This document shows positions 3,804 to 60,180 of a DNA stretch of 64,000 bases, one piece after another. The stretch covers positions 42,164,191 to 42,228,190 of the forward strand of contig NC_088302.1 in NCBI RefSeq assembly GCF_032854445.1. The letters run 5' to 3'. Source of the stretch: Liolophura sinensis. Lineage: Eukaryota > Mollusca > Polyplacophora > Chitonida > Chitonidae. Positions within the stretch are counted from its first letter, which is position 1. Every line of letters starts with the position of its first letter. Made by a program: the position numbers and the translations under genes. The notes below the pieces were generated by a model. It saw nothing but the letters and a program-made list of their open reading frames with translations. It was not told the origin of the DNA and did not search any database.

Positions 3804-5348
3804 AATTCCTCTTTTGCACCTTTACAAAGAAGTTTTTCCTTAACTGCGACAACGATGACAAAAAAGAATGTTTTTTTTTGTATCTTTGTCATCAAAAAGA
3901 ATTATAGAGAAAGTATGGCATGAGTTATATGTATATATGTTTTATTTTAAACAGGTTTGTCTTTGTATATTTTGATTCAACGCAGAAATTTGAAGTCTTG
4001 GAGATTTCACCGGAGTCTGTTAATTCGTATTTGTTGTTTTGATTAAATCAGAAAGAAAACATAAAAATAAAGCATCTGTAGAAAATACCTTAACCTTTTT
4101 ACATGATGAAATATGGTGCATGTATAAGGTGGACAATATTACTAATGTATGTGTTTTGCTCATTCTGCACATTACTGACCTGTCAATATACCTAACATGT
4201 TCACCCCTTTTTTCTCATGACACCAGAGTATTTGTATCGTACGAAAAAGTCTGCAGTGTTACAGCCAAACTAGGCATATTTATTTGTTATTCCGGCTCGA
4301 CCTCGACGAAAGAAGATATTTTACCCACCGAGGACACATAGAGATCATCTTATCACGTGAATGTAAAGATTGTAATTTCTAGCGATCAGACACACGAGGT
4401 ACAGGTTCAATTCAAGCCTTCAACAGGGGATTTGCACAGATCCCTCCCCTCTCAGTGTTTCTATACAGGCCTTGGTGAAAGAGGTAGTCAAGGGAGCTCT
4501 TTTGGCTGTTTGCGCTGTCTTACCTTCGCTTAAGACCTTTGCCTTCCATCAAAATGGGCTTAAAATCGGTACATCGCAGGTGGAAAGTTCCTCTTTTACT
4601 TGGTAAAAGTCTCTGCTGTCCCCCACCCATAGAACTGATCGTAAAAGTGTCAGAAATAAAATCGGGTGTATGACGTTCAACATGAATCTGTCAATGGATG
4701 GATCCATTGTCAATCATTGTAAGATCACCTCCTGGCTGTGTCTGCTTAATTACGGAGTCTTTTTGCTTAGTTACTGAATTACACGTACAGGGGTAAATTA
4801 TCGCTTGATCGGCTTCATTACATATACATCTGTAATCTTTTTGGTGCAGTTTACCGAGAGTGAGAGATACCCGGGTCTCTATATATATGAAGCATTAATG
4901 GTCTTCCGTTGAGATATATGGCATGAATGTTTGTATGGTCATGTGGACCACGTTAACGATGGTGGAGAACTTTTATCGTACTCAAATCCCTCATTTCGGA
5001 AACACATATGACTAGGGTCTGGAGTCGATCAGTGAGAGAATTAACCAGATGGTTAGGTTTGGATGCGCTTGTTTTCCTGAGTGTGGGTAGACCTGATACA
5101 TCTGAATGCTATCTTGGACAAGGACACATTGCAAACTGTCACTACGTTTGCAACTAATTTCTGATGCACCAAGAGCACTTCTAAATAAGTGTTTCTTGGA
5201 AACGTGAAAACGATGTCTGTATTATATTTTTTTTATAGGAACATGATACTTGTATAAGTTTGAAGAACTCATCACAGGTTTTCGTAGGCCTACTGTGTAC
5301 TAATTTGGACTCCAGGGTACTTTACCTACATTCTCTGTAACCGCAAAC

Positions 5349-6461
5349 ATGAATTTCTCTACAAATGGCTCAACTGAGGAGAACATAACGTACTCCAGCA
5401 CGACGACAGGAATCTTGGATCAGTCAGAAGACGCGACTTCCCAGGACCCACGGCAAGAAGTTGCCGACAACTTATGGAAGGTTTGTTCTCCAATTCTCAT
5501 TCTGTTAGGTACTTTTGGAAACAGTGTCTCCATTGCTGTTCTTTGCCGGAAATCTATGTGGAAGATCTCCTCCTCTCCGTACCTGGTGGCCCTCGGTGTG
5601 GCCGATCTATTCGTCCTGTGGACAGCCCTCCTCAGACAATGGCTCAGGTTCTTGGTGAACATAGACATTCGGGATTTTTCCCCCGTCGTCTGTAAACTTC
5701 AAATTTTTTCTTTGTTCACGTTCACGGACTTCTCCGCCTGGACTCTTGTGGCAGTAACGGTGGAGAGGTTCATATTTGTTTGCTTCCCGTTTAAAGCCAA
5801 GAGCGTTTGTACTCGAAGGAGGACCACTTTCACTCTGGTTCTAATCCTGCTTTCTCTTGCCCTTCTCAACTCCCACTTCTTGTACGGCTATGGTTCCGTC
5901 TACGAAGAGCCAGCGCTTATCCCCTACTGTGGCCACATTAATGACAACTACTCCATGTTCTTCTATCAAATCTGGCCTTGGATTGACACATCGGTTTTCT
6001 CTCTTGTGCCTTTCAGTATAATTGCCATTTGTAATATTTCCATCATCACCAAAATCGCCCGTTCCCGATTCCGGAACAAGGTAGCGGCCAACAGTGCCGG
6101 TGAGGGTGACAATCGGGTGAAGCCTTCCTCCATGACGGCCTTGCTACTTTCGCTTAACACCGTATTTCTTGTCACCACGGCTCCCGTCTGTATTTTCTAC
6201 ATTGGTTTACCCGAGTGGACGCGCACAGCAACCTCCGAAGAAAAAATAGAGTTGGACTTATGGCTCGCCATCCTTCAGCTCCTTATGTATCTCAACAACT
6301 CGGTCAATTTTCTGTTTTATTGTATAAGTGGTCCTAAGTTTAGAAGAGAACTGAGATCCATTTGTGGACGGAGAGGCGCTACTGGAACGACAACGAATGA
6401 GTCCACAGCACCAACAGGTGTCTCGGTTATCCCTCTCAGGGAACAGGCCAAATCACCGTGA
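5349..6461 (+). CDS. Class A (rhodopsin-type) GPCR, array copy B
   Basis: A 370-residue paralogue of copy A with the same seven-TM layout, Cys115/Cys194 pair, ERF motif (139-141) and NSVNFLFY (317-324). Relative to A it has Phe3, Thr9, Gly21, Ala81, Pro112 and Lys368; four of the six changes fall in the extracellular N-terminus, TM2 or the TM2-TM3 loop and one at the C-terminus, none in the G-protein-facing motifs. Pro112 is shared with C and D, so Arg112 in A is the derived state. The open frame and near-identical flanks, including the upstream TATATATA near 4882, suggest both copies are functional or very recently duplicated. Likely a peptide receptor; ligand unknown. Confidence 0.93.
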   Translation: MNFSTNGSTEENITYSSTTTGILDQSEDATSQDPRQEVADNLWKVCSPILILLGTFGNSVSIAVLCRKSMWKISSSPYLVALGVADLFVLWTALLRQWLRFLVNIDIRDFSPVVCKLQIFSLFTFTDFSAWTLVAVTVERFIFVCFPFKAKSVCTRRRTTFTLVLILLSLALLNSHFLYGYGSVYEEPALIPYCGHINDNYSMFFYQIWPWIDTSVFSLVPFSIIAICNISIITKIARSRFRNKVAANSAGEGDNRVKPSSMTALLLSLNTVFLVTTAPVCIFYIGLPEWTRTATSEEKIELDLWLAILQLLMYLNNSVNFLFYCISGPKFRRELRSICGRRGATGTTTNESTAPTGVSVIPLREQAKSP

Positions 6462-9400: not shown

Positions 9401-9617
9401 TGCAAACTGTCACTACGTTTGCAACTAATTTCTGATGCACCAAGAGCACTTCTAAATAAGTGTTTCTTGGAAACGTGAAAACGATGTCTGTATTATATTT
9501 TTTATAAGAACATGATACTTGTATAAGTTTGAAGAACTTATCACAGGTTTTCGCAGGCCTACTGTGTACTAATTTGGACTCCAGGGTACTTTACCTACAT
9601 TCTCTGTAACCGCAAAC

Positions 9618-10730
9618 ATGAATTTCTCTACAAATGGCTCAACTGAGGAGAACATAACGTACTCCAGCACGACGACAGGAATCTTGGATCAGTCAGAAGA
9701 CGCGACTTCCCAGGACCCACGGCAAGAAGTTGCCGACAACTTATGGAAGGTTTGTTCTCCAATTCTCATTCTGTTAGGTACTTTTGGAAACAGTATCTCC
9801 ATTGCTGTTCTTTGCCGGAAATCTATGTGGAAGATCTCCTCCTCTCCGTACTTGGTGGCCCTCGGTGTGGCCGATCTATTCGTCCTGTGGACAGGCCTCC
9901 TCAGACAATGGCTTAGGTTCTTGGTGAACATAGACATTTGGGATATTTCCCCCGTCATTTGTAAACTTCAAATTTTTTCTTTGTTCACGTTCACGGACTT
10001 CTCCGCCTGGACTCTTGTGGCAGTAACGGTGGAGAGGTTCATATTTGTTTGCTTCCCGTTTAAGGCCAAGAGCGTTTGTACTCGAAGGAGGACCACTTTC
10101 ACTCTGGTTCTAATCCTGATAGCTCTTGCTCTTCTGAACTCCCACTTCTTGTACGGCTATGGTTCCGTCTACGAAGAGCCAGCGCTTATCCCCTACTGTG
10201 GCCACATTAATGACAACTACTCCATGTTCTTCTATCAAATCTGGCCTTGGATTGACACATCGGTTTTCTCTCTTGTGCCTTTCAGTATAATTGCCATTTG
10301 TAATATCTCCATCATCACCAAAATCGCCCGCTCCCGATTCCGGAACAAGGTAGCGGCCAACAGTGCCGGTGAGGGTGACAATCGGGTGAAGCCTTCCTCC
10401 ATGACGGCCTTGCTACTTTCGCTTAACACCGTATTTCTTGTCACCACGGCTCCCGTCTGTATTTTCTACATTGGTTTACCCGAGTGGACGCGCACGGCAA
10501 CCGCCGAAAAGAAAATAGAGTTGGACTTATGGCTCGCCATCCTTCAGCTCCTTATGTATCTCAATAACTCGGTCAATTTTCTGTTTTATTGTATAAGTGG
10601 TCCTAAGTTTAGAAGAGAACTGAGATCCATGTGTGGACGGAGAGGCGCTACTGGAACGACAGCGACTGTGTCCACAGCACCAACAGGTGTCTCGGTCATC
10701 CCTCTCAGAGAACAGGCAAACTCACCGTGA
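9618..10730 (+). CDS. Class A (rhodopsin-type) GPCR, array copy C
   Basis: A 370-residue paralogue with intact motifs (Cys115/Cys194, ERF, NSVNFLFY). Changes against B include V60I, A93G, R108W, F110I, V114I, L168I, S169A, S296A, E298K, I338M and three substitutions at 349-351 in the C-terminal tail. Several (Gly93, Ile114, the IALAL version of TM4, Met338) are shared with copy D, placing C between D and the A/B pair. Substitutions gather in extracellular loop 1 and the top of TM3, TM4, the third extracellular loop and the C-terminal tail. The 3' flank follows A/B with small indels to about 11778, then switches to a C-specific block. Confidence 0.93.
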   Translation: MNFSTNGSTEENITYSSTTTGILDQSEDATSQDPRQEVADNLWKVCSPILILLGTFGNSISIAVLCRKSMWKISSSPYLVALGVADLFVLWTGLLRQWLRFLVNIDIWDISPVICKLQIFSLFTFTDFSAWTLVAVTVERFIFVCFPFKAKSVCTRRRTTFTLVLILIALALLNSHFLYGYGSVYEEPALIPYCGHINDNYSMFFYQIWPWIDTSVFSLVPFSIIAICNISIITKIARSRFRNKVAANSAGEGDNRVKPSSMTALLLSLNTVFLVTTAPVCIFYIGLPEWTRTATAEKKIELDLWLAILQLLMYLNNSVNFLFYCISGPKFRRELRSMCGRRGATGTTATVSTAPTGVSVIPLREQANSP

Positions 10731-14994: not shown

Positions 14995-16120
14995 ACATAG
15001 AGATCATCTTATCACGTGAATGTAAAGATTGTAATTTCTAGCGACCAGACACACGAGGTACAGGTTCAATTCAAGCCTTCAACAGGGGATTTGCACAGAT
15101 CCCTCCCCTCTCAATGTTTTTATACAGGCCTTGGTGAAAAATGTAGTCAAGGGAGCTCTTTTGGCTGTTTGCGGTGTCTTACCTTCGCTTAAGACCTTTG
15201 CCTTCCATCAAAATGGGCTTAAAATCGGCACAACGCAGGTGGACAGTTCCTCTTTAAATTGGTAAAAGTCTCTCCCCCACCCATAGAACTGATCGTAAAA
15301 GTGAAGAAATGAAATCGGGTGTATGACGTTCAACATGAATCTGTCAATGGATGGATCCATTGTCAATCATTGTAAGATCACCTCCTGGATGTGTCCGCAT
15401 AGTTATCAAGCCTATTTGCCTAGTTACTGAATTACACCTACAGCAATAAATTATCGCTCAGTTGGCTTCATTACATATACATCTGTAATCTTCTCTTGTC
15501 CGTGCACATTACCGAGAAGACACCTTGATCTCTCAATATACGAGGCATTTATTTTCTTCTTACAACGAGTAATCGTCGTATTTTGGGCTTTTTTTTTTGG
15601 TCTTCCATTGAGATATATGACATTAATGTTTGTATGGTTGGTGGACTACATTAACTGTGATGAGGAAGTTTTATTGTACTTAAATCTCTCGGGAACACAC
15701 GTGATTTGGGTCTGGGGTCAACCAATGAGAGAATTACCCAGATGGTTAGATTTGGAAGCACTTTTTATCCTGAGTTTGGGTAATTCGGAAACATCTGAAT
15801 GCTATCTTAGATAAGAAAATCCCCATGTTGAAGACATGACGACAAGTCCCAGGGCTTTACTTCATCGACAGTCGTACAGACGTGGAAATTATACATTTGA
15901 AACATTGCAAACTGTCACTACGTTTGCAACTGAATTCTGATGCACCAAGAGCACTTCTTAATGTGTTTCGTGGAAACGTGAAAACGAAGTCTTCATTATG
16001 TTTTGTATAAGAATGTGATACTTGTATAAGTTTCAAGAACTCATCAAAGGCATTCGTAGGCCTACTGTGTAAGGAACTGGGCTTAACAGTACTTTACGGA
16101 CATTCGCTGTAACCGCAAAC

Positions 16121-17257
16121 ATGAATTACTCTACAAATGGCTCCACTGAGGAGAACGTAACGTTCTCCAGCACGACGACAGAAATCTTGGATCAGTCAGA
16201 AGACGCGACTTCCCAGGACCCGCGGATAGTGGCATCCGACAACATATGGAAGGTTTGTTCTCCAATTCTGATTCTGTTAGGCACTATTGGAAACAGTGTC
16301 TCCATTGCTGTCCTTTGCCGGAAATCTATTTGGAAGATCTCCTCCTCTCCGTACCTGGTGGTCCTCGGTGTGGCCGACCTATTCGTCTTGTGGACAGGTC
16401 TCCTCAGACAATGGCTCAGGTTCTTGGTGAACATAGACATTCGGGATTTGTCCCCCGTCATCTGTAAACTTCAAATTTTTTGCCTGTACACCGTCACCGA
16501 CTTCTCCGCCTGGACTCTTGTGGCAGTAACGGTGGAGAGGTTCATATTTGTTTGCTTCCCGTTTAAGGCCAAGAGCGTTTGTACTCGAAGGAGGACCACT
16601 TTCACTCTGGTTCTAATTCTGATAGCTCTTGCTCTCGTAAACTCCCACTTGTTGTACGGCTATGATTTTGTCTACGACGAGCCATCTGTCAATGACGGCG
16701 ACCCGCCAGCCCTTATCCCCTACTGTGGCCACATTAATGACGACTATTCCATGTTCTTCGACGAAATCTGGCCTTGGCTTGACATATCGGTTTTCTCACT
16801 GGTGCCTTTCAGTATAATTGCCATTTGTAATATCTCCATCATCACCAAAATCGCCCGTTCCCTATTCCGGAACAAGGTAGCGGCCAACAGTGCCGGTGAG
16901 GGTGACAATCGGGTGAAGCCTTCCTCCATGACGGCCTTGCTACTTTCCCTTAACACCGTATTTCTTGTCACCACGGCTCCTGTTTGTATTTACTACATTG
17001 GTTTACCCGAGTGGACGCGCACAGCAACTTCCGAAGAGGACATGCAGTTGGACTTATGGTTCGCCATCGTCCATCAACTAATGTATCTCAACAACTCGGT
17101 CAATTTTCTGTTTTATTGTATAAGTGGACAAAAGTTCAGAAGAGAACTGAGATCCATGTGCGGACAGAGAAGCGCTACTGGAACGATAGCTACTGAATCC
17201 TTCGGACGAACAGGTGTCTCGGTCATCCCTTTAAGGGAGCACACTAACGCAGGATGA
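16121..17257 (+). CDS. Class A (rhodopsin-type) GPCR, array copy D (divergent)
   Basis: A 378-residue paralogue and the most diverged of the four. It keeps the TM1 GNSV, TM2 VADL, the ERF motif, the TM3-ECL2 cysteine pair and NSVNFLFY. It has eight extra residues in extracellular loop 2: between VYDEP and ALIPYCGH it inserts SVNDGDPP, just before the disulphide cysteine, in a loop that commonly shapes the ligand pocket of peptide receptors. Other changes include DDYSMFFDEIWPW for DNYSMFFYQIWPW and MQLDLWFAIVHQL before TM7. The start context CCGCAAACATG is conserved. The 5' flank matches the other units only in parts and is interrupted by the 949-bp transposon about 1.1 kb upstream. Ligand unknown. 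Confidence 0.92.
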   Translation: MNYSTNGSTEENVTFSSTTTEILDQSEDATSQDPRIVASDNIWKVCSPILILLGTIGNSVSIAVLCRKSIWKISSSPYLVVLGVADLFVLWTGLLRQWLRFLVNIDIRDLSPVICKLQIFCLYTVTDFSAWTLVAVTVERFIFVCFPFKAKSVCTRRRTTFTLVLILIALALVNSHLLYGYDFVYDEPSVNDGDPPALIPYCGHINDDYSMFFDEIWPWLDISVFSLVPFSIIAICNISIITKIARSLFRNKVAANSAGEGDNRVKPSSMTALLLSLNTVFLVTTAPVCIYYIGLPEWTRTATSEEDMQLDLWFAIVHQLMYLNNSVNFLFYCISGQKFRRELRSMCGQRSATGTIATESFGRTGVSVIPLREHTNAG

Positions 17258-21089: not shown

Positions 21090-24000
21090 CAAAAATGATC
21101 GTTATAGTATATATACACGCTGGATGATAAAGCTCTCTGCTTAGATCAGTTGCTGTCTTTATCTTCCCGCCAGTATACATACACAAGGCTTCCTCTGGAT
21201 CAGTATTTTTTTTAGCCAGTCACTTTAGCCAGTCATCAGACTTTGTAGCCAATACAATTTTTCTTTAGCCATACTTTTTAGTGGCCTTGACTTAATCTTT
21301 GTGATCTTCAGATGACTGAATGGGAGCAGTATCTATGACACATGGTGGTCTTCATCTGTAATTCGTTTTTATTTGCCTTGGTATAGCTGCTAGAATCAAG
21401 TTTGGTCTCTTCCAGCTATATCTGGAGTTTACCCCATACCACACTTGGAACAATTGCCCTCAAAATAATGCAGTGTTTTTGTTTTTTGAAAAAAAAAAAT
21501 AAACATTTTTTCAATTAATCTGTGTAGGGTCCTACTAAAATGCAATTTGCTCTATCAGAAAAATTTGTTACAAAATAAATGTATAAATTTAGTTCTAGGG
21601 TGGAAGGGTTAAATTTTTCAAGGGAAGTAACTTCATTTACATGTCTAACACTACCTATATTTATCTCCCTTAATAGTTTTTTTTTTTTAATGTAATTTTT
21701 TCCCTTTAGATTTGCCTATAAAAGGCATCTCCAAAAATGCCAGGATTCTCGTTCATTAGTCAACAAAAATGATTTTCAAGCGTTATCTATAATGTTAGTC
21801 AACTTCCAAGAATGCTGAACCCTCTTTGTAGATTTCTGTCAATTAAAACTTTCAACTATGTTGTTGTTGTTTCGCTGAAATGAAGCCCTTTGAAATAAAA
21901 GTACATGGATTGTTATCATCAGAAATATAGCGACAATACGCATAAAACAACAGAAAACTCTCATGCCTGAAAAGTACTAGGAAAACTTCGCCAGGTAATT
22001 TGTGTATAACGTTTGTACATTTTCTTAGGTAAATAAATTCATCACCAAAAATATTCCCCTATTTTCGAACTTTCGAACCATTTCAAAAAATTGTTCTAAA
22101 TTTGCGTCAATGGCAAATGACAATGCTTGGCATCAAAATGCTGGAAATTGTCTAAGCTTTGGGCAGGTATGAGTTTTACTGATGAAAGTTTGGAATTCTG
22201 GGTGAGAGGACACAAGGAGATATGTGGTTATTAGGATGTGAGTGACGTCCTCTTTGAGCTGCTAGGCACCCCTCCCAGCTGCCGGCAGAGAAAGGTCCAG
22301 ATTTTGACGGTCAACCTATGTCAAGCTTTATATGGCTTTTTCCTCACAGGCTGGGTCAGGTATGCACCAAAGCTTATTGGCCACGGAATGTTTGGGGCTG
22401 AGCTACAGCACTAAACATTAACACTGTCGCTTATGGAAAATTGATGGGGGTCTGTGGCCATTTCCACCTCTTCAGCAGCCAGTATATATTCTCGAGTAAA
22501 TAATTTTGTGGCCAAAAACTTTCGCCATTTCCCTGATTTTACTGCCAGTCCAAATTTTTACTCGCAACTGGCGACAATGGCGAATGCCAGCGGAAGCCCT
22601 GCATCCACGCTGGATGATTAAAGCTTTCCGCTTAGATCAGTTGCTCTCTTTATCTTCCTGCTAGTGTACATACACACAGGATGATAAATCGCTCTGCTTA
22701 GATCACTTAGTGTCTTATCTTCACCTCTGCATCCTGATCAATGCCAGTATACATACACTCTCAATGATGAAGATCTCTCTGTCATACATGTCCCACTGTT
22801 AGATCAGTTACTGTCTTATCTTCTCCGTGGTGGCTCGTCAGTGACAGTAATCATACACCCTGTAAACATGTTCACACACTCTGCATGATGAAGTTCTCTC
22901 TGTATGCATGTACATACACTCCATATGTTGAAGTCCTCTCTGTATATATACAGTAAGTCCTACTGTTAGATCAGTTACTGTGTTATCTCCCCCTCAGTGA
23001 CTTGCTCAGGGACAGTATACACAGTTCTCTCTATATACACATACATACACTCTGTATGACGAAGTTTTCTCTGTATACCGGTATATACACCCTGTATGAC
23101 GAAACTGTCCCTGTATGCATGTATATACACTCTGTATGATGAAGCTCTTTCTGTATGCGTGTAGACTGTATGATGAAACTGTCTCTGTATGCATGTACAT
23201 ACACTCTGTATGATGAAACTGTCCCTGTATGCATGTATATACACTCTGTATGATGAAGCTCTTTCTGTATGCGTGTAGACTGTATGATGAAACTGTCTCT
23301 GTATGCATGTACATACACTCTGTATGATGAAACTGTCCCTGTATGCATGTATATACACTCTGTATGATGAAGCTCTTTCTGTATGCGTGTAGACTGTATG
23401 ATGAAACTGTCTCTGTATGCATGTACATACACTCTGTATGATGAAACTGTCTCTGTATGCATGTACATACACTCTGTATGATGAAACTGTCCCTGTATGC
23501 ATGTATATACACTCTGTATGATGAAGCTGCCTCTGTATGATGAAACTGTCCCTGTATGCACGTATATACACTCTGTATGATAAAGCTCTTTCTGTATGCG
23601 TGTAGACTCTGTATGATGAAACTGTCTCTGTATGCATGTATATACACTCTGTATGATGAAACTGTCCCTGTATGCATGTATATACACTCTGTATGATGAA
23701 GCTCTTTCTGTATGCGTGTAGACTGTATGATGAAACTGTCTCTGTATGCATGTACATACACTCTGTATGATGAAACTGTCTCTGTATGCATGTACATACA
23801 CTCTGTATGATGAAGCTCTTTCTGTATCTGTGTAGACTCTGTATGATGAAACTGTCTCTGTATGCATGTACATACACTCTGTATGATGAAACTGTCTCTG
23901 TATGCATGTACATACACTCTGTATGATGAAACTGTCTCTGTATGCATGTACATACACTCTGTATGATGAAACTGTCTCTGTATGCATGTACATACACTCT

Positions 24001-24181
24001 GTATGATGAAACTGTCTCTGTATGCATGTACATACACTCTGTATGATGAAGCTCTTTCTGTGTGCATGTTCATACACTCTGTATGATGAAACTGTCTCTG
24101 TATGCATGTACATACACTCTGTATGATGAAACTGTCTCTGAGTGCATGCACATACACTCTGTATGAAGAAGCTCTCTGTGT
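21090..24181. repeat. Minisatellite field: 40-bp units and diverged 100-bp units
   Basis: From about 23030 to 24180 a 40-bp unit (CTGTATGATGAAACTGTCTC plus TGTATGCATGTACATACACT) repeats some 25-30 times. Between about 23127 and 23480 a higher-order period of 114 bp (40+40+34) is visible: the GAAGCTCTTTCTGTATGCG variant recurs at 23141, 23255 and 23369. Diverged 100-bp-type units occur at 21105-21190 and 22608-23020, with unrelated DNA between. All three minus frames stay open for 350-385 codons because a 40-bp unit without stops rotates through the frames; these are repeat artefacts, not genes. Confidence 0.92.
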
Positions 24182-24790
24182 AATACATGTAGCACTGTTA
24201 GATCAGGTACTATATTATCTTGCCCTCAGTGACCAGGTCAGTGACAGTATACATACACTCTGGATGATGAAGCTCTCTCTGTATACAAGTACTGCTGTTA
24301 GCTCAGTTACTGTCTCATCTTCCCCTCAGCAGCCTGGTCAGTGACAGTATACATACACTCTGGATGATGAAGCTCTCTCTGTATACAGGAACTGCTGTTA
24401 GCTCAGTTACTGTCTCATCTTCCCCTCAGTGACCAGGTCAGTGACAGTATACATACACTCTGGATGATGTAGCTCTCTCTGTATACAAGTACTGCTGTTA
24501 GCTCTGTTACTGTCTCATCTTCCCCTCAGTGACCAGGTCAGTGACAGTATACATACACTCTGGACGATGAAGCTCTCTCTGTATACAAGTACTGCTGTTA
24601 GCTCTGTTACTGTCTCATCTTCCCCTCAGTGACCAGGTCAGTGACAGTATACATACACTCTGGATGATGAAGCTCTCTCTGTATACAAGTACTGCTGTTA
24701 GCTCAGTTACTGTCTCATCTTCCCCTCAGTGACCAGGTCAGTGACAGTATACATACACTCTGGATGATGATACTCTCTCTGTATTCATCT
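24182..24790. repeat. Six copies of a 100-bp tandem unit
   Basis: The landmark GTGACAGTATACATACACTC recurs at 24241, 24341, 24441, 24541, 24641 and 24741, an exact 100-bp spacing. Units differ by a few bases. The unit resembles the TPGS2 3' UTR immediately to the right (24805-24900). Confidence 0.95.
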
Positions 24791-43983: not shown

Positions 43984-43991
43984 TATATATA
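43984..43991 (+). promoter_or_regulatory. Candidate TATA box of the trunk-like gene
   Basis: TATATATA lies about 230 bp before the proposed ATG at 44220. The presumed leader from about 44015 to 44219 contains no upstream ATG, which fits a real 5' UTR. Confidence 0.45.
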
Positions 43992-44219
43992 TGAAGGAAA
44001 GTGAAGGTGTTTGCCAGTCTCATTCTGGCTCTGTAGGGTACGGTACAAGAGAACAGGTGAAGAGGGAGAGAGAATTTGGATTCCGCGCAGTGTTTTCCCA
44101 GTACTAGAAAGGGGTATCAAATCTGACACTGAGGCAGAACTGTCTACACCCGCATTCTGAAGAAGACTTCTGTAAACTACCTTAATCTTTTAAATACCCC
44201 CGGACTGACGCATCCCCCA

Positions 44220-47200
44220 ATGGAGCAGGTATGTATGTATATATTTATTTATTTACTTATTTATTTATTTGATTGTGTTTTACGCCATACTCAAGAATAT
44301 TTCACTTATACGACGGCGACCAACATTATGGTAGGAGGAAACCGGGCAGAGATCGATGAAAACGCATGACCATCCGCAGGTTGCATGCTGACCTTCTCAC
44401 GTACGAGGCATGTATATAAAAAAACATAACTATGAAAGCGCAACACAGTGCAGGCTGTACATGATCTTGTCAACGTCAGTGTTGCCTAAATTTTGTGTTT
44501 AAGGTACTGTGTGGAATTGCCTTGCGGTGAAAGTATTACTGTGTGATTCACACGTTACATTTAGGGCTGTATATATCCACTTAGTTATGATGACATTTTG
44601 TGTTCGTTGCGCTGTTGAATTCACAAATAAAGACGCTACACGTCACAATAAGTGTTCCTAACGCTGTAAAATTTACCCTGAGATATGTTTAACAGTTGAT
44701 GTTTATGCTATGCTGAATTTAAACTTTGTCATGTTAACGTTAGGGATTGTATAGATGAGTTCGTAATGCTGATATATGCTAAATCCAGGCTTAATAATTA
44801 GAGCACCTTAAGGCATAGTGCAATCGTTCATAAGACAGTGGCTCATAAATGTTGTGCAGTTTTGCATTGAGAATAGTACATGTAGATGTCGTTTAGGGAA
44901 TTGATTTCTAAAGTAACAGTATTATCATTAATTATCTTTTACACTTTCTCGATATAGTATAGGGTCTACAGTTGAAAAATTGTTGAGACTATTCATGGTT
45001 TCGAACCATCGACCTCAGGCACAAAATCACAAGTCAACTTTCTAGACCATTCGACCAACAGGCTTCTCCCAAAACACATAGGATGTGCATGTCGTCTGTG
45101 TGTCGAACATGTATAGTCTATCTGATGATCAGAAATGACACAGTTCTCTTAGTCAAACACATCAGACTGGCAGATGCCAGTTAGAAAGTGGATGCATAAG
45201 TAACAGTTTTATCGTTTGCTGGATATTGGTTCGGACCTTTCCAGATTTCGAAACAGCAACCTCTGAAACAGGCATAAAATTGCTAGCAATAACTTTTGTA
45301 TCAACTTTAATGAACCGTTTGGTTTGCTTCTGTTGTAGTGAATGCGGTGACCAACACAGGATTAGAACCCATTTACTGAACTGCTAACATGCTGACAAAA
45401 AAGATGATTCAGACATACATAACAGTAAGTACTTACACTTTACATAATTTGTGAATACAGACCTGAAATTCAGTAAAAATCTGAAGGAGTTTGTATGTGT
45501 CACCTTCTGGGATGAAGGGAATAAATGCACAGACGCCGCTGGTATGTAGGCTTCAGAAGTTGACTGGGATATCGTTTTTGAACTGCCAAATATATTGCCG
45601 CAAAAGTATTTTTACTTTGGTTATTGTTGATTATGGGTTGACCACGCATTATTGTTACGGAGCTTTGCAAAATTTCTCATAAAAAGAGTTAACACCACGC
45701 AGTTACAATGCAAGGTCGGAGATGAGCCCACGCCTCGAGTGCCTCACTCACTGTGCTGCTACATGCCGCTCCCCAGGCTACGGAAGAGGGATCGTTTTCG
45801 CCAAGGTCCACTCCTCATCCCGAACGTTGTCCTACAAGTGAACCATTCTTGAGTACGCCTTTAGATCTTATATTCAAATTAATAAACAAATCGTGGGCCT
45901 GACCGATATGGTGATATGCGGACAGATTGCCTCACAGCATACAAATAGGACTTTAATCAATATATTATAAATCAATTAACCGCTCAATCAGGTTATCCAG
46001 CTCTTCTCATATTATCTTGACTATTTGCTCTGGCACAGATGAATATTTGATTCGTGCAATACCCATTTTACTACTCATCTATTGGCTTTTGAGGAACCAC
46101 GTAATATCTCGGCACCGTATAACGTTTTAGCTCCCCAAAGAATAGATGATAGAACTAATGATAGAACATTGATAACGTCAGAAAAGACAAGATAAGTTTT
46201 TGAGGGAAGGGGTATGGAGAAGGTTCTGATTTCGTTTTAACTGGTGGATCATATTTTTTGTCTAATATTTTTGGCATTGATATGATATCATGTGGATTGT
46301 ATCACACCATACTGTTTAATAGGATGTTAATCAATCAATTAAGCAATTAGTCGAGATCTTCCCGTGTAGACTTTAGCTATTTCACCACGGATGGACATTT
46401 AAATGGTGTAACATCCATTTTACTACTCGTCCAGTGGAATTTGAGGAACATATATTTATGTGTATTGTCTGTCCTACATAATCGCTTAGACCGCCAAACG
46501 ACTATAGAACCAATGATAGCGCATTGATAACATCAGACAAGAACCCCTTTTACGGGAAGGGGGAAGTTAGTTTTAGCTGACCGATAATCGTTTTTTTTTT
46601 TGCATTGATACGATACAGTATCTCAGCCCAGTATCGTTTGTCAGTGTGTGTTGCGTCACGGTGAAAAAATATAATGATTTCTCGGAATGTTCTCCTCAAA
46701 AAATAAACGCCTCCAATGAGCGATATTAATTCAATAGTTAAAATCAAGTGATAAAACAAAACCTGCTATCTATTTAGGGACATAACTAATCATTATAGCA
46801 GCAGACCAAGGTTTAAAAACATTTGTGTTCGATTTACTTTAGTTTGTGGTGATTGGTCTTTAAACCACATTAACCTACCACTTACCCAAGATGGTTTAAC
46901 TTTGTCGGGTATTACTTTGGTAGGACTTACCAGTGTCGACACTCGTTCATTCAACCTGTATAGAAATGTCTCACATCCAAAACCAATTCAGTGCGTTTAA
47001 ATTTAGACGTCATATCAGCCATTTGTATACCAGTCGTATCAGGTCAGTATTATGTAAAGACCAATTTCCAAAACAGCGTTCAACATAAACCACTAAAAAG
47101 GTATATTAAGTTAAATATAAGGGCGGAGTCATATAAAGGGGGACACGCTACAATTTCAATGATGGCAGCAAGATGCCGTTAAGGTGAATTTCATCAGTAT

Positions 47201-47834
47201 TGTGCTGAAGGTTGTTGTGGAATTTAGTCATGAAATTATTGACATGATTGTGCCACAACGTCCATTGTAAATGGCTTTTGGTATACTAATTGTTGTTTCG
47301 ACGCCAGATCCAAATCGTGTACCATGCTGTGTCATAAAAATGTTTTACTTTGTATTGCAGGTGCTTCTGCTGGCTTGTTTGGCTGTGTACAGTGCCGAGG
47401 GCAGTACCACGGTATCTTGCTCCTCTGATACTTCCGAATATATGGGCTCGCCAATCTACGGTAATCTCCAGAAAAAGCTTCATCACCACTTGGCTGGTTA
47501 TTACTCCCTGGTCAGTCCGTCTGTCGGTGGCAAGAGACAACCTCATTCCACGGAACCGTTTTTCCCTGAGAACCCTCTACCCTGGTCCTGTACCTCCGAG
47601 ACGCAATGGAGGGACCTCGGTGAGGATCATTATCCACGTTTTGTTCGTGACGTCACCTGTTCCCAGAACCGCTGCTGGTACGGCCACTACGCATGCGCCT
47701 CTCAATCCACCATTCTGAAGATTCTGCGCAGAAATAATGGAGAATGTGTAGACGCCACACTTCCGGCTACGCTTCGGACTGAATGGAAATTCGTTAACGT
47801 GCGTGTCACTGTTGGCTGTTTATGTAGCCGGTAA
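44220..47834 (+). CDS. Secreted trunk/PTTH/noggin-like cystine-rich factor
   Basis: Likely an extracellular ligand or antagonist. Proposed exons: 44220-44228 (Met-Glu-Gln, then CAG|GTATGT) and 47361-47834 (after TTTGTATTGCAG), joining in phase 0 to 160 aa. Exon 1 completes a signal peptide with LLLACLAVYSAEG. The mature part has eight cysteines, a possible dibasic site (GGKRQ) and a C-terminal domain with PWSCTSETQWRDLGEDHYPR, DVTC, CWYGHYAC, ILKILRR and a final GCLCSR. W-x-DLG-xx-(Y/F)PR, then CW-(F/Y)-G-H, then K-(I/L)-L-R is characteristic of insect Trunk and PTTH (ligands of the Torso kinase) and related to noggin (BMP antagonist); I cannot choose between these activities. Exon 2 also opens upstream at 47271, but that extension ignores the acceptor and lacks an ordinary signal start. 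Exon 1 is inference; exon 2 is strong. Confidence 0.75.
44243..44409 (-). mobile_element. SINE (family 1), headless, reverse orientation
   Basis: Starts with the inverted ATTTATTTGATTG tail, then TACGCCATACTCAAGAATAT, and ends near CCATCCGCAGGTTGCATG. It sits 15 bp inside the trunk-like intron, just after the donor. Confidence 0.85.
44985..45330 (-). repeat. Two related tRNA-like segments in the trunk-like intron
   Basis: Read on the minus strand, 44990-45068 contains TGGTCGAATGGTCTAGAAAG and GATGGTTCGAAACC (A- and B-box-like). A diverged second copy at about 45215-45330 has GTTCATTAAAGTTG and GCTGTTTCGAAATC. Both are preceded on the plus strand by GTAACAGT-TTATC. They look like SINE heads duplicated about 270 bp apart rather than functional tRNAs: the cloverleaf is not complete. 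Confidence 0.5.
45900..46650. repeat. Diverged tandem duplication, about 340-360 bp period
   Basis: The first copy (about 45900-46225) and second copy (about 46260-46560) share CCATTTTACTACTC (46067, 46420), TTGAGGAAC, AATGATAG-----ATTGATAA (46157, 46512) and TTAATCAAT. A third partial start with GCATTGATACGATA appears at 46601. It lies in the trunk-like intron. Confidence 0.75.
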
Positions 47835-47951
47835 TTTCCCTTCATCCAGCAAAACACACACACGACTTTCACCCCAATGCGTGATGGTTGGGGAATACAG
47901 GTTTTTTTTTATAAAAGCACATCCGAATTTTTCCTGCTCCTTCAAAATCGT

Positions 47952-48131
47952 AACCAGCTAATGCTGGCTTCCTCTCCGGCCGTACGTGGGAGGTCTGACA
48001 GCAACCTGCGGATTGTCGTGGGCTTCCCCCGGGCTCTGCCCGGTTTCCTCCTACCATAATCCTGGCCGCCGTCGTATAAGTAAAATATTCTTGAGTACGG
48101 CGTAAAGCACCAATGAAAAAAATAAATAAAT
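47952..48131 (+). mobile_element. SINE (family 1), 5'-truncated
   Basis: Starts at ACCAGCTAATGCTGGCTTCC and carries GCAACCTGCGGATTGTCGTG, CTCTGCCCGGTTTCCTCC, ATATTCTTGAGTACGGCGTA and an AAATAAATAAATC tail. It lies 117 bp after the trunk-like stop codon and contains AATAAA, so it could supply the gene's poly(A) signal. Confidence 0.9.
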
Positions 48132-59078: not shown

Positions 59079-60092
59079 TCAAGACACGGCGGTGAAGTTC
59101 TCTGTCGTCGGGTGCTGATATTGGCCGAGGGAGATAGGCGAACAGATTGGGGAATGCGTGAATTTTGGTGGAGAGAAGTTCTGTGGATAATTGCCCGTTC
59201 CGAGATAATAGCAGTGGGGTGATGGAATCTGAGGTGGTGACCACATCATACAGGCAGCGGTGCCCAGGTACGGGTGGTAAGCCATGGGAGATGACGTCAT
59301 TGGCACGTATCCCATATCATATCCATATTTCAGCGGGGAACAATACCCCATATTCACCTCTTTTGTGATTTTTCGGGCACGTCGTCTAGCCTGACGCCGA
59401 CGGAAGTCCCCTTTGGCGAAGTCCTCTATGCAAGAAGGATGAATGGACCAATAGTTGCCCTTACCGTTGTCGGCACGCCCGTTTTTCATGAAGCATTCGT
59501 TGAGAGAGAGGTTGTGGCGGACGCTGTTTCTCCAGGCTTTCTCTCTGTTGTTGTAGTAGGGGAAATTGTCCATGATGTACTGGTAGATGTCGGCCAGAAT
59601 CAGTTTTCTCTCAGGTGACTGGAGAATCGCCATTGATATCAGGGCAATATAGGAATGCTCCGGTTTCTCCTCTTTCCTACTTGAGGCGCAGTTGTTGGAT
59701 GGAAAGGCCTCTTCGTGCAAGCTGGTAGCCGAGGAAATGCTCCCATTTGAATGGATTGGTGGAGATGTGTTTTTTGTCACTTCAGAAGCCGGAAAAGTCA
59801 GGTTTGAAAATCTCGACACGACAAAAGTTTGTCCTTGGTTTGCTGACGTACTCACTTTCTCCAAATGGCCTCCAGCTGGGGACACGGTTTTCGCTTGTTT
59901 GTCCAGGGATAGGAGTATCTGAGCGATCGATTCCGTTTCTGGCGAAGAGGAGGAAGATGATGAGAACATACTTTCGGTCTCTGACTTTGGAGAAGAAAGT
60001 TGAGTTTCTCCAAAACTTGTATTAAAAGTGGCGGCTTGTCGACTGCGGCTGATGTTATTGCCCATAAGGTCGTCAATACTGAAGGTAAGCAT
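59079..60092 (-). CDS. foxQ2: Forkhead transcription factor FoxQ2
   Basis: Nuclear DNA-binding regulator; FoxQ2 genes usually act in anterior/apical ectoderm patterning of invertebrate larvae. One exon, 337 aa. The forkhead domain spans about 143-237: SYIALISMAILQSPERKLIL, DIYQYIMDNFPYYNN, KAWRNSVRHNLSLNECF, GRADNGKGNYWSIHP and DFRRRQARRRARK. The DIYQYIMDNFPYYNN and DFRRRQARRRAR blocks are FoxQ2-type. At the usual KPPYSYIAL start it has KPEHSYIAL, an unusual change. The extreme N-terminus FSIDDLM (4-10) fits an EH1-type Groucho-binding motif. The flanks are Ser-rich (40-50) and the C-terminus Pro/Tyr-rich. The ATG context is CACACCACCATGC. CCAAT and TATA elements lie about 90-120 bp upstream. 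Which FoxQ2 paralogue this is cannot be said. Confidence 0.93.
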   Translation of the reverse strand: MLTFSIDDLMGNNISRSRQAATFNTSFGETQLSSPKSETESMFSSSSSSSPETESIAQILLSLDKQAKTVSPAGGHLEKVSTSANQGQTFVVSRFSNLTFPASEVTKNTSPPIHSNGSISSATSLHEEAFPSNNCASSRKEEKPEHSYIALISMAILQSPERKLILADIYQYIMDNFPYYNNREKAWRNSVRHNLSLNECFMKNGRADNGKGNYWSIHPSCIEDFAKGDFRRRQARRRARKITKEVNMGYCSPLKYGYDMGYVPMTSSPMAYHPYLGTAACMMWSPPQIPSPHCYYLGTGNYPQNFSPPKFTHSPICSPISLGQYQHPTTENFTAVS

Positions 60093-60180
60093 GGTGGTGT
60101 GGTTTGACCGATCGTTAGATTCTGGATATCCTTTGGTAAAGTCGACTGCGTTTTGTTTCGAACATCAGAAGGCCTTTTGA

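Follow-up and report, generated by a model that had tools for sequence, protein, structure and literature searches.

The 64,000-nt stretch of chiton DNA analysed here (the window) carries at 44220-47834 a predicted Trunk/PTTH-like precursor, which we call the window protein; coordinates are positions in the window unless a contig is given. Sequence inspection located ATGGAGCAG at 44220-44228, followed by GTATGT, and an acceptor, ...TTTTACTTTGTATTGCAG, ending at 47360. The predicted splice junction reads ATGGAGCAG/GTATGT ... TTGCAG/GTGCTTCTG. When 44220-44228 was joined to 47361-47834, the resulting 160-codon frame encoded a 160-aa precursor without internal stops and ended at the TAA of 47832-47834. 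An earlier note on this DNA had listed a TATA box, exon 1, donor, acceptor and exon 2 motifs, all of which we found in their places; its claim that the upstream exon is in matching phase also held, the join being in frame and phase-0.

The mature domain is preceded by a signal peptide, judged by eye from hydropathy and the -3/-1 rule, and by a predicted proteolytic site, KR. The N terminus is hydrophobic under either of the two starts weighed below. The exon 1 ATG lies in a weak start context (C at -3, G at +4). The leader had been described as ATG-free, which was true up to 44220 except for one ATG: the only one between TATATATA and 44220 overlaps the end of that element (TATATATATGAAGG, ATG at 43991) and sits upstream of any TATA-directed start. 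The GC content was 47% over 43992-44228, the leader region, versus 38% in the putative intron.

Table 1. Features of the Trunk/PTTH-like gene, related loci in the chiton genome and other features of the window
Feature	Position	Strand	Remarks
Candidate TATA element TATATATA	43984..43991	+	Assigned by position only; 10 matches in window, two overlapping
Putative ATG-free 5' leader	44014..44219	+	Start assumed ~30 nt 3' of TATA element
Predicted coding exon 1	44220..44228	+	ATG GAG CAG (M-E-Q); phase-0 end
Predicted intron 1	44229..47360	+	3132 nt; GTATGT...TTGCAG
SINE-like interspersed repeat in intron, just 3' of donor	44244..44408	-	9-nt flank ATGTATATA on both sides
Rival unspliced in-frame start codon	47340..47342	+	Gives MFYFVLQVLLLACLAVYSAEG; A at -3
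Predicted exon 2	47361..47834	+	Signal-peptide core, propeptide, mature domain, stop
Signal-peptide hydrophobic core and likely cleavage region	47361..47405	+	VLLLACLAVYSAEGS
KR dibasic site	47532..47537	+	Predicted prohormone cleavage before QPHSTEPFF
Predicted mature Trunk/PTTH cystine-knot domain	47538..47831	+	98 aa; seven cysteines
Trunk/PTTH-like paralogue L004	C8:27385734-27386018		42% identical; long propeptide rich in basic sites
Trunk/PTTH-like paralogue L005	C7:12924279-12924545	-	33% identical; locus G000:C7:12922779-12926045
Noggin-type loci L001, L002	G000:C1:4308198 and 4238448		~70 kb apart
Four intron-free rhodopsin-type GPCR genes	1033-2187, 5304-6458, 9573-10727, 16073-17254	+	Pfam 7tm_1, E 1e-17 to 1e-20
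Three overlapping long open frames	22978-24202	-	Each >360 aa
Forkhead-domain transcription factor exon	59082-60164	-	Pfam Forkhead, E 2.3e-34

The repeat inside the predicted intron is flanked by ATGTATATA at 44235-44243 and at about 44409-44417, and a genome search returned many further copies at ~88% identity. We ruled out that this SINE had made the donor, because the duplicated target lies downstream of GTATGT, which is outside it. An oppositely oriented relative of this repeat occupies ~47940-48130 (+) in the 3' flank, where it supplies the first AATAAA motifs past the stop (48121 and 48125).

Elsewhere in the window, three of the GPCR genes are arrayed in tandem in near-identical units of ~4.27 kb (identity mostly 95-100%), a recent duplication; the fourth is more diverged. 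The overlapping open frames could be a repeat without stops. One of the three, 23034-24197 (-), was tested and matched no Pfam family.

Splice sites were scored with generic matrices, not trained on this species. On this scale, the donor at 44229 ranked among the top 9 of the 4024 GTs in the window, and the acceptor before 47361 among the top 6 of the 3523 AGs. Markov resampling of the local sequence gave an expectation of 0.15% for an equally strong acceptor within 120 nt. The MEQ exon was the top phase-0 ATG-to-donor candidate within 8 kb upstream (5.9, the next scoring 3.9); because 32% of resampled 8-kb upstream stretches yielded an equally strong candidate, the donor alone is weak evidence, and the acceptor is stronger evidence than the exon 1 candidate. 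When the TATA element and the ATG-free leader were added to the same ATG-to-donor candidate, none of 400 resampled stretches (0/400) contained the combination, which had been picked after seeing it.

Other N termini were rejected. A less likely alternative exon 1 (MKESEGVCQSHSGSVGYGTREQ), at 43991-44056, has a weaker donor and overlaps with the TATA element. Least likely is a start at 47271: an open run of 30 codons is nothing remarkable by chance, and a charged, proline-containing stretch would precede the hydrophobic core. The earlier note had warned that an ORF-based model would wrongly start there; the warning was reasonable, but it overlooked the in-frame ATG at 47340, the more serious unspliced rival.

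We searched the genome (609,464,459 bp in 632 contigs) and found two further Trunk/PTTH-like genes, L004 and L005. In L005, a phase-0 intron follows CAG just before the signal-peptide core (donor CAG/GTAAGT, acceptor TTTCTGCTTACAG). TTTCTGCTTACAG/ATACAG stands before the core, and MCVFWASTQ/GTAAGT, in phase 0 and by far the top candidate there, is found 448 nt upstream. This intron provides independent support for the splice of the window gene, although the model of L005 itself is incomplete: its signal-peptide/propeptide frame and its Cys-domain frame differ and overlap, which calls for one more short intron between them or else a frameshift. In L004, the signal peptide seems to be in the same exon as the domain, without the intron of the window gene.

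The coding sequence could instead be intron-free from the ATG at 47340 (MFYFVLQVLLLACLAVYSAEG...), the MEQ exon then being fortuitous or belonging to an alternative transcript. This in-frame ATG, with A at -3, would lengthen the hydrophobic core and leave a normal signal peptide; in L004 and the noggin-type loci, too, signal peptide and domain lie within one open frame. Such a start would require, however, that the 21 nt it would make coding (ATGTTTTACTTTGTATTGCAG) finish by accident in one of the top-ranking acceptors of the window (0.15% in resampled sequence), and at the corresponding place L005 carries a phase-0 intron. We consider the intron-free start unlikely; it would give an identical mature hormone, with no intron required. 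The favoured gene model, resting on the strong sites, the right phase and the phase-0 intron of L005, is the two-exon one, and the MEQ exon is probably spliced to 47361. The three-codon first exon proposed in the earlier note thus gains from the strong in-phase sites and from L005, and is weakened by the apparent lack of the intron in L004 and by the alternative ATG at 47340. So tiny a first exon is plausible but ordinary; it is not uncommon for a very short first coding exon to stand before a signal peptide.

When the window protein alone was compared with all PDB sequences, the only match was silkworm PTTH (5aoq_L, E 5.6e-6), covering residues 77-160, from PWSC through to the C-terminal end. 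With a profile built from the three chiton paralogues, PTTH was matched at 1e-10 and noggin at 0.0041; these were the only matches up to E 10. The window domain is 28% identical to Bombyx PTTH (5aoq chain L) over the domain. They have the knot cysteines in common, six PTTH cysteines aligning in order with the first of PPCTC excluded; DLGE..PRF, the KILRR/ILKRR strand, the single W and V.V.CLC.R are aligned as well. The excluded residue, which we take to be the interchain cysteine of Bombyx PTTH, is absent beside the first knot cysteine in the alignment (PWSC in the window protein, PPCTC in PTTH). The window protein instead has an extra Cys in NGEC, which is common to all three chiton paralogues, and its propeptide is much shorter than that of Bombyx PTTH. 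Since the preceding cysteine of PTTH is absent and the NGEC cysteine is common to the chiton paralogues, 'Trunk/PTTH-like' is the right label, and judged by its sequence the protein is not a PTTH in the strict insect sense. The motif previously given as W-x-DLG-xx-YPR was present with a different spacing, reading W-R-DLG-EDH-YPR with three residues between DLG and YPR. An AlphaFold model of the mature domain, built with no alignment, had a pLDDT of 46, too poor for a fold search.

Noggin (1m4u and the two chiton loci) has the W-x-DLG-xxx-PR block and the cystine-knot layout in common with the window protein; their identity is 21-27%, and noggin differs in its C-terminal half and falls in a separate clade. 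The Pfam Noggin family (PF05806) matched weakly, at E 7.8e-4 and 19.8-21.5 bits, under its curated cut-off of 24.1, which could mean that the protein is a BMP antagonist like noggin and not the ligand of a receptor kinase. An aphid Noggin-like protein antagonises BMP and also activates MAPK, with no need of its clip domain (PMC9071555). Against a noggin identity, the genome contains two separate noggin-type loci, with which human noggin groups (54% and 43% identity, versus 21% with the window domain), and the precursor has only ~40 residues ahead of the KR site, without the N-terminal region of noggin. In a seven-sequence tree with no outgroup, whose human noggin row was entered partly by hand beyond the stretch covered by the profile match, the noggins split off at 100% bootstrap from PTTH and the three chiton Trunk-like domains; the other nodes, with 52-65% support, gave no firm order within the latter group. 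The phylogeny with PTTH and noggin that had been proposed as a check therefore separated the noggins and went no further. We regard a noggin-like BMP antagonist as very unlikely, and because noggin-type loci exist separately in the same genome, Trunk/PTTH-like is a better name than noggin-like. The open frame of one of these loci, L002, diverges from noggin after the LLRWHC block and loses the family match, which points to an intron or to C-terminal truncation.

An IL-17/CFSH-type cytokine that had converged on the same cystine-knot layout was also considered. Pfam IL17 (PF06083) was matched weakly by all three chiton proteins (best 8.9e-5), the window protein at E 0.022 and 15.6-17.2 bits, under the curated cut-off of 24 bits. 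IL-17 structures are present in the PDB, and yet no IL-17 chain was among the matches of the three-paralogue profile up to E 10, where PTTH stood at 1e-10; the W-x-DLG-xxx-YPR block, moreover, is of the noggin/Trunk type. This origin is hardly credible, and the window protein is almost certainly a ligand of the Trunk/PTTH family. The earlier placement with Torso ligands and noggin-like factors is supported, silkworm PTTH being the best PDB match; within the noggin/Trunk superfamily the gene belongs on the Trunk/PTTH side, the genome having noggin-type loci apart from it.

Trunk has been reported from molluscs (PMC6660194, PMC6425005), as have Trunk/PTTH-like genes according to the passage of PMC6660194 that cites Jekely 2013, and Torso sequences have been reported from lophotrochozoans (PMC6660194). 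Four oyster precursors, Cragi-PTTH1-4, are made up of a signal peptide and a Cys-rich peptide, to which two of the four add a segment flanked by dibasic sites; the visceral ganglia of oyster express related precursors, and two of these are broadly expressed (PMC8398477). The chiton precursor resembles these oyster and molluscan Trunk/PTTH-like precursors in its signal peptide, the optional propeptide with dibasic sites, the C-terminal Cys-rich domain and the several paralogues per genome, a likeness drawn from published descriptions; all that is new here is the chiton species and its gene structure. Drosophila Trunk requires cleavage, and its activity is found in the C-terminal fragment (PMC6303783).

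The overall reading, a chiton gene of Trunk/PTTH type with two exons that encodes a secreted, processed ligand, is one we hold with good confidence. Transcription would start near 44014, and the MEQ exon would be spliced to exon 2. The 160-aa precursor would enter the secretory pathway through MEQVLLLACLAVYSAEG and be cut after KR (codons 47532-47537), releasing a cystine-knot ligand of ~98 aa. The insect PTTH/Trunk pathway is established, from secretion and cleavage through the knot-domain ligand to the Torso kinase and MAPK. By analogy, the chiton ligand probably dimerises and would activate a receptor tyrosine kinase, likely one of Torso type, and the MAPK cascade. Many kinase exons were listed by a kinase-family search, none of which we claim as the receptor. 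As the oyster relatives are expressed in visceral ganglia, two of them broadly, a neuroendocrine or growth role would be the most likely one.

A more unusual outcome, which we think improbable, is that the gene encodes one of three diverged Trunk-type ligands of a non-moulting mollusc, with paralogue-specific processing (a short propeptide here, a long one in L004), and that it acts on a non-Torso receptor or has the combined BMP and MAPK activity that noggin-like proteins are proposed to have had ancestrally. Molluscs were already known to have Trunk/PTTH-like genes, and the window gene leaves the picture of the family unchanged. It offers a testable gene model, the N terminus of which an ORF-only annotation would get wrong, and it enlarges a family of little-known role outside insects by a chiton set of three Trunk/PTTH-like ligands and two noggin-type loci.
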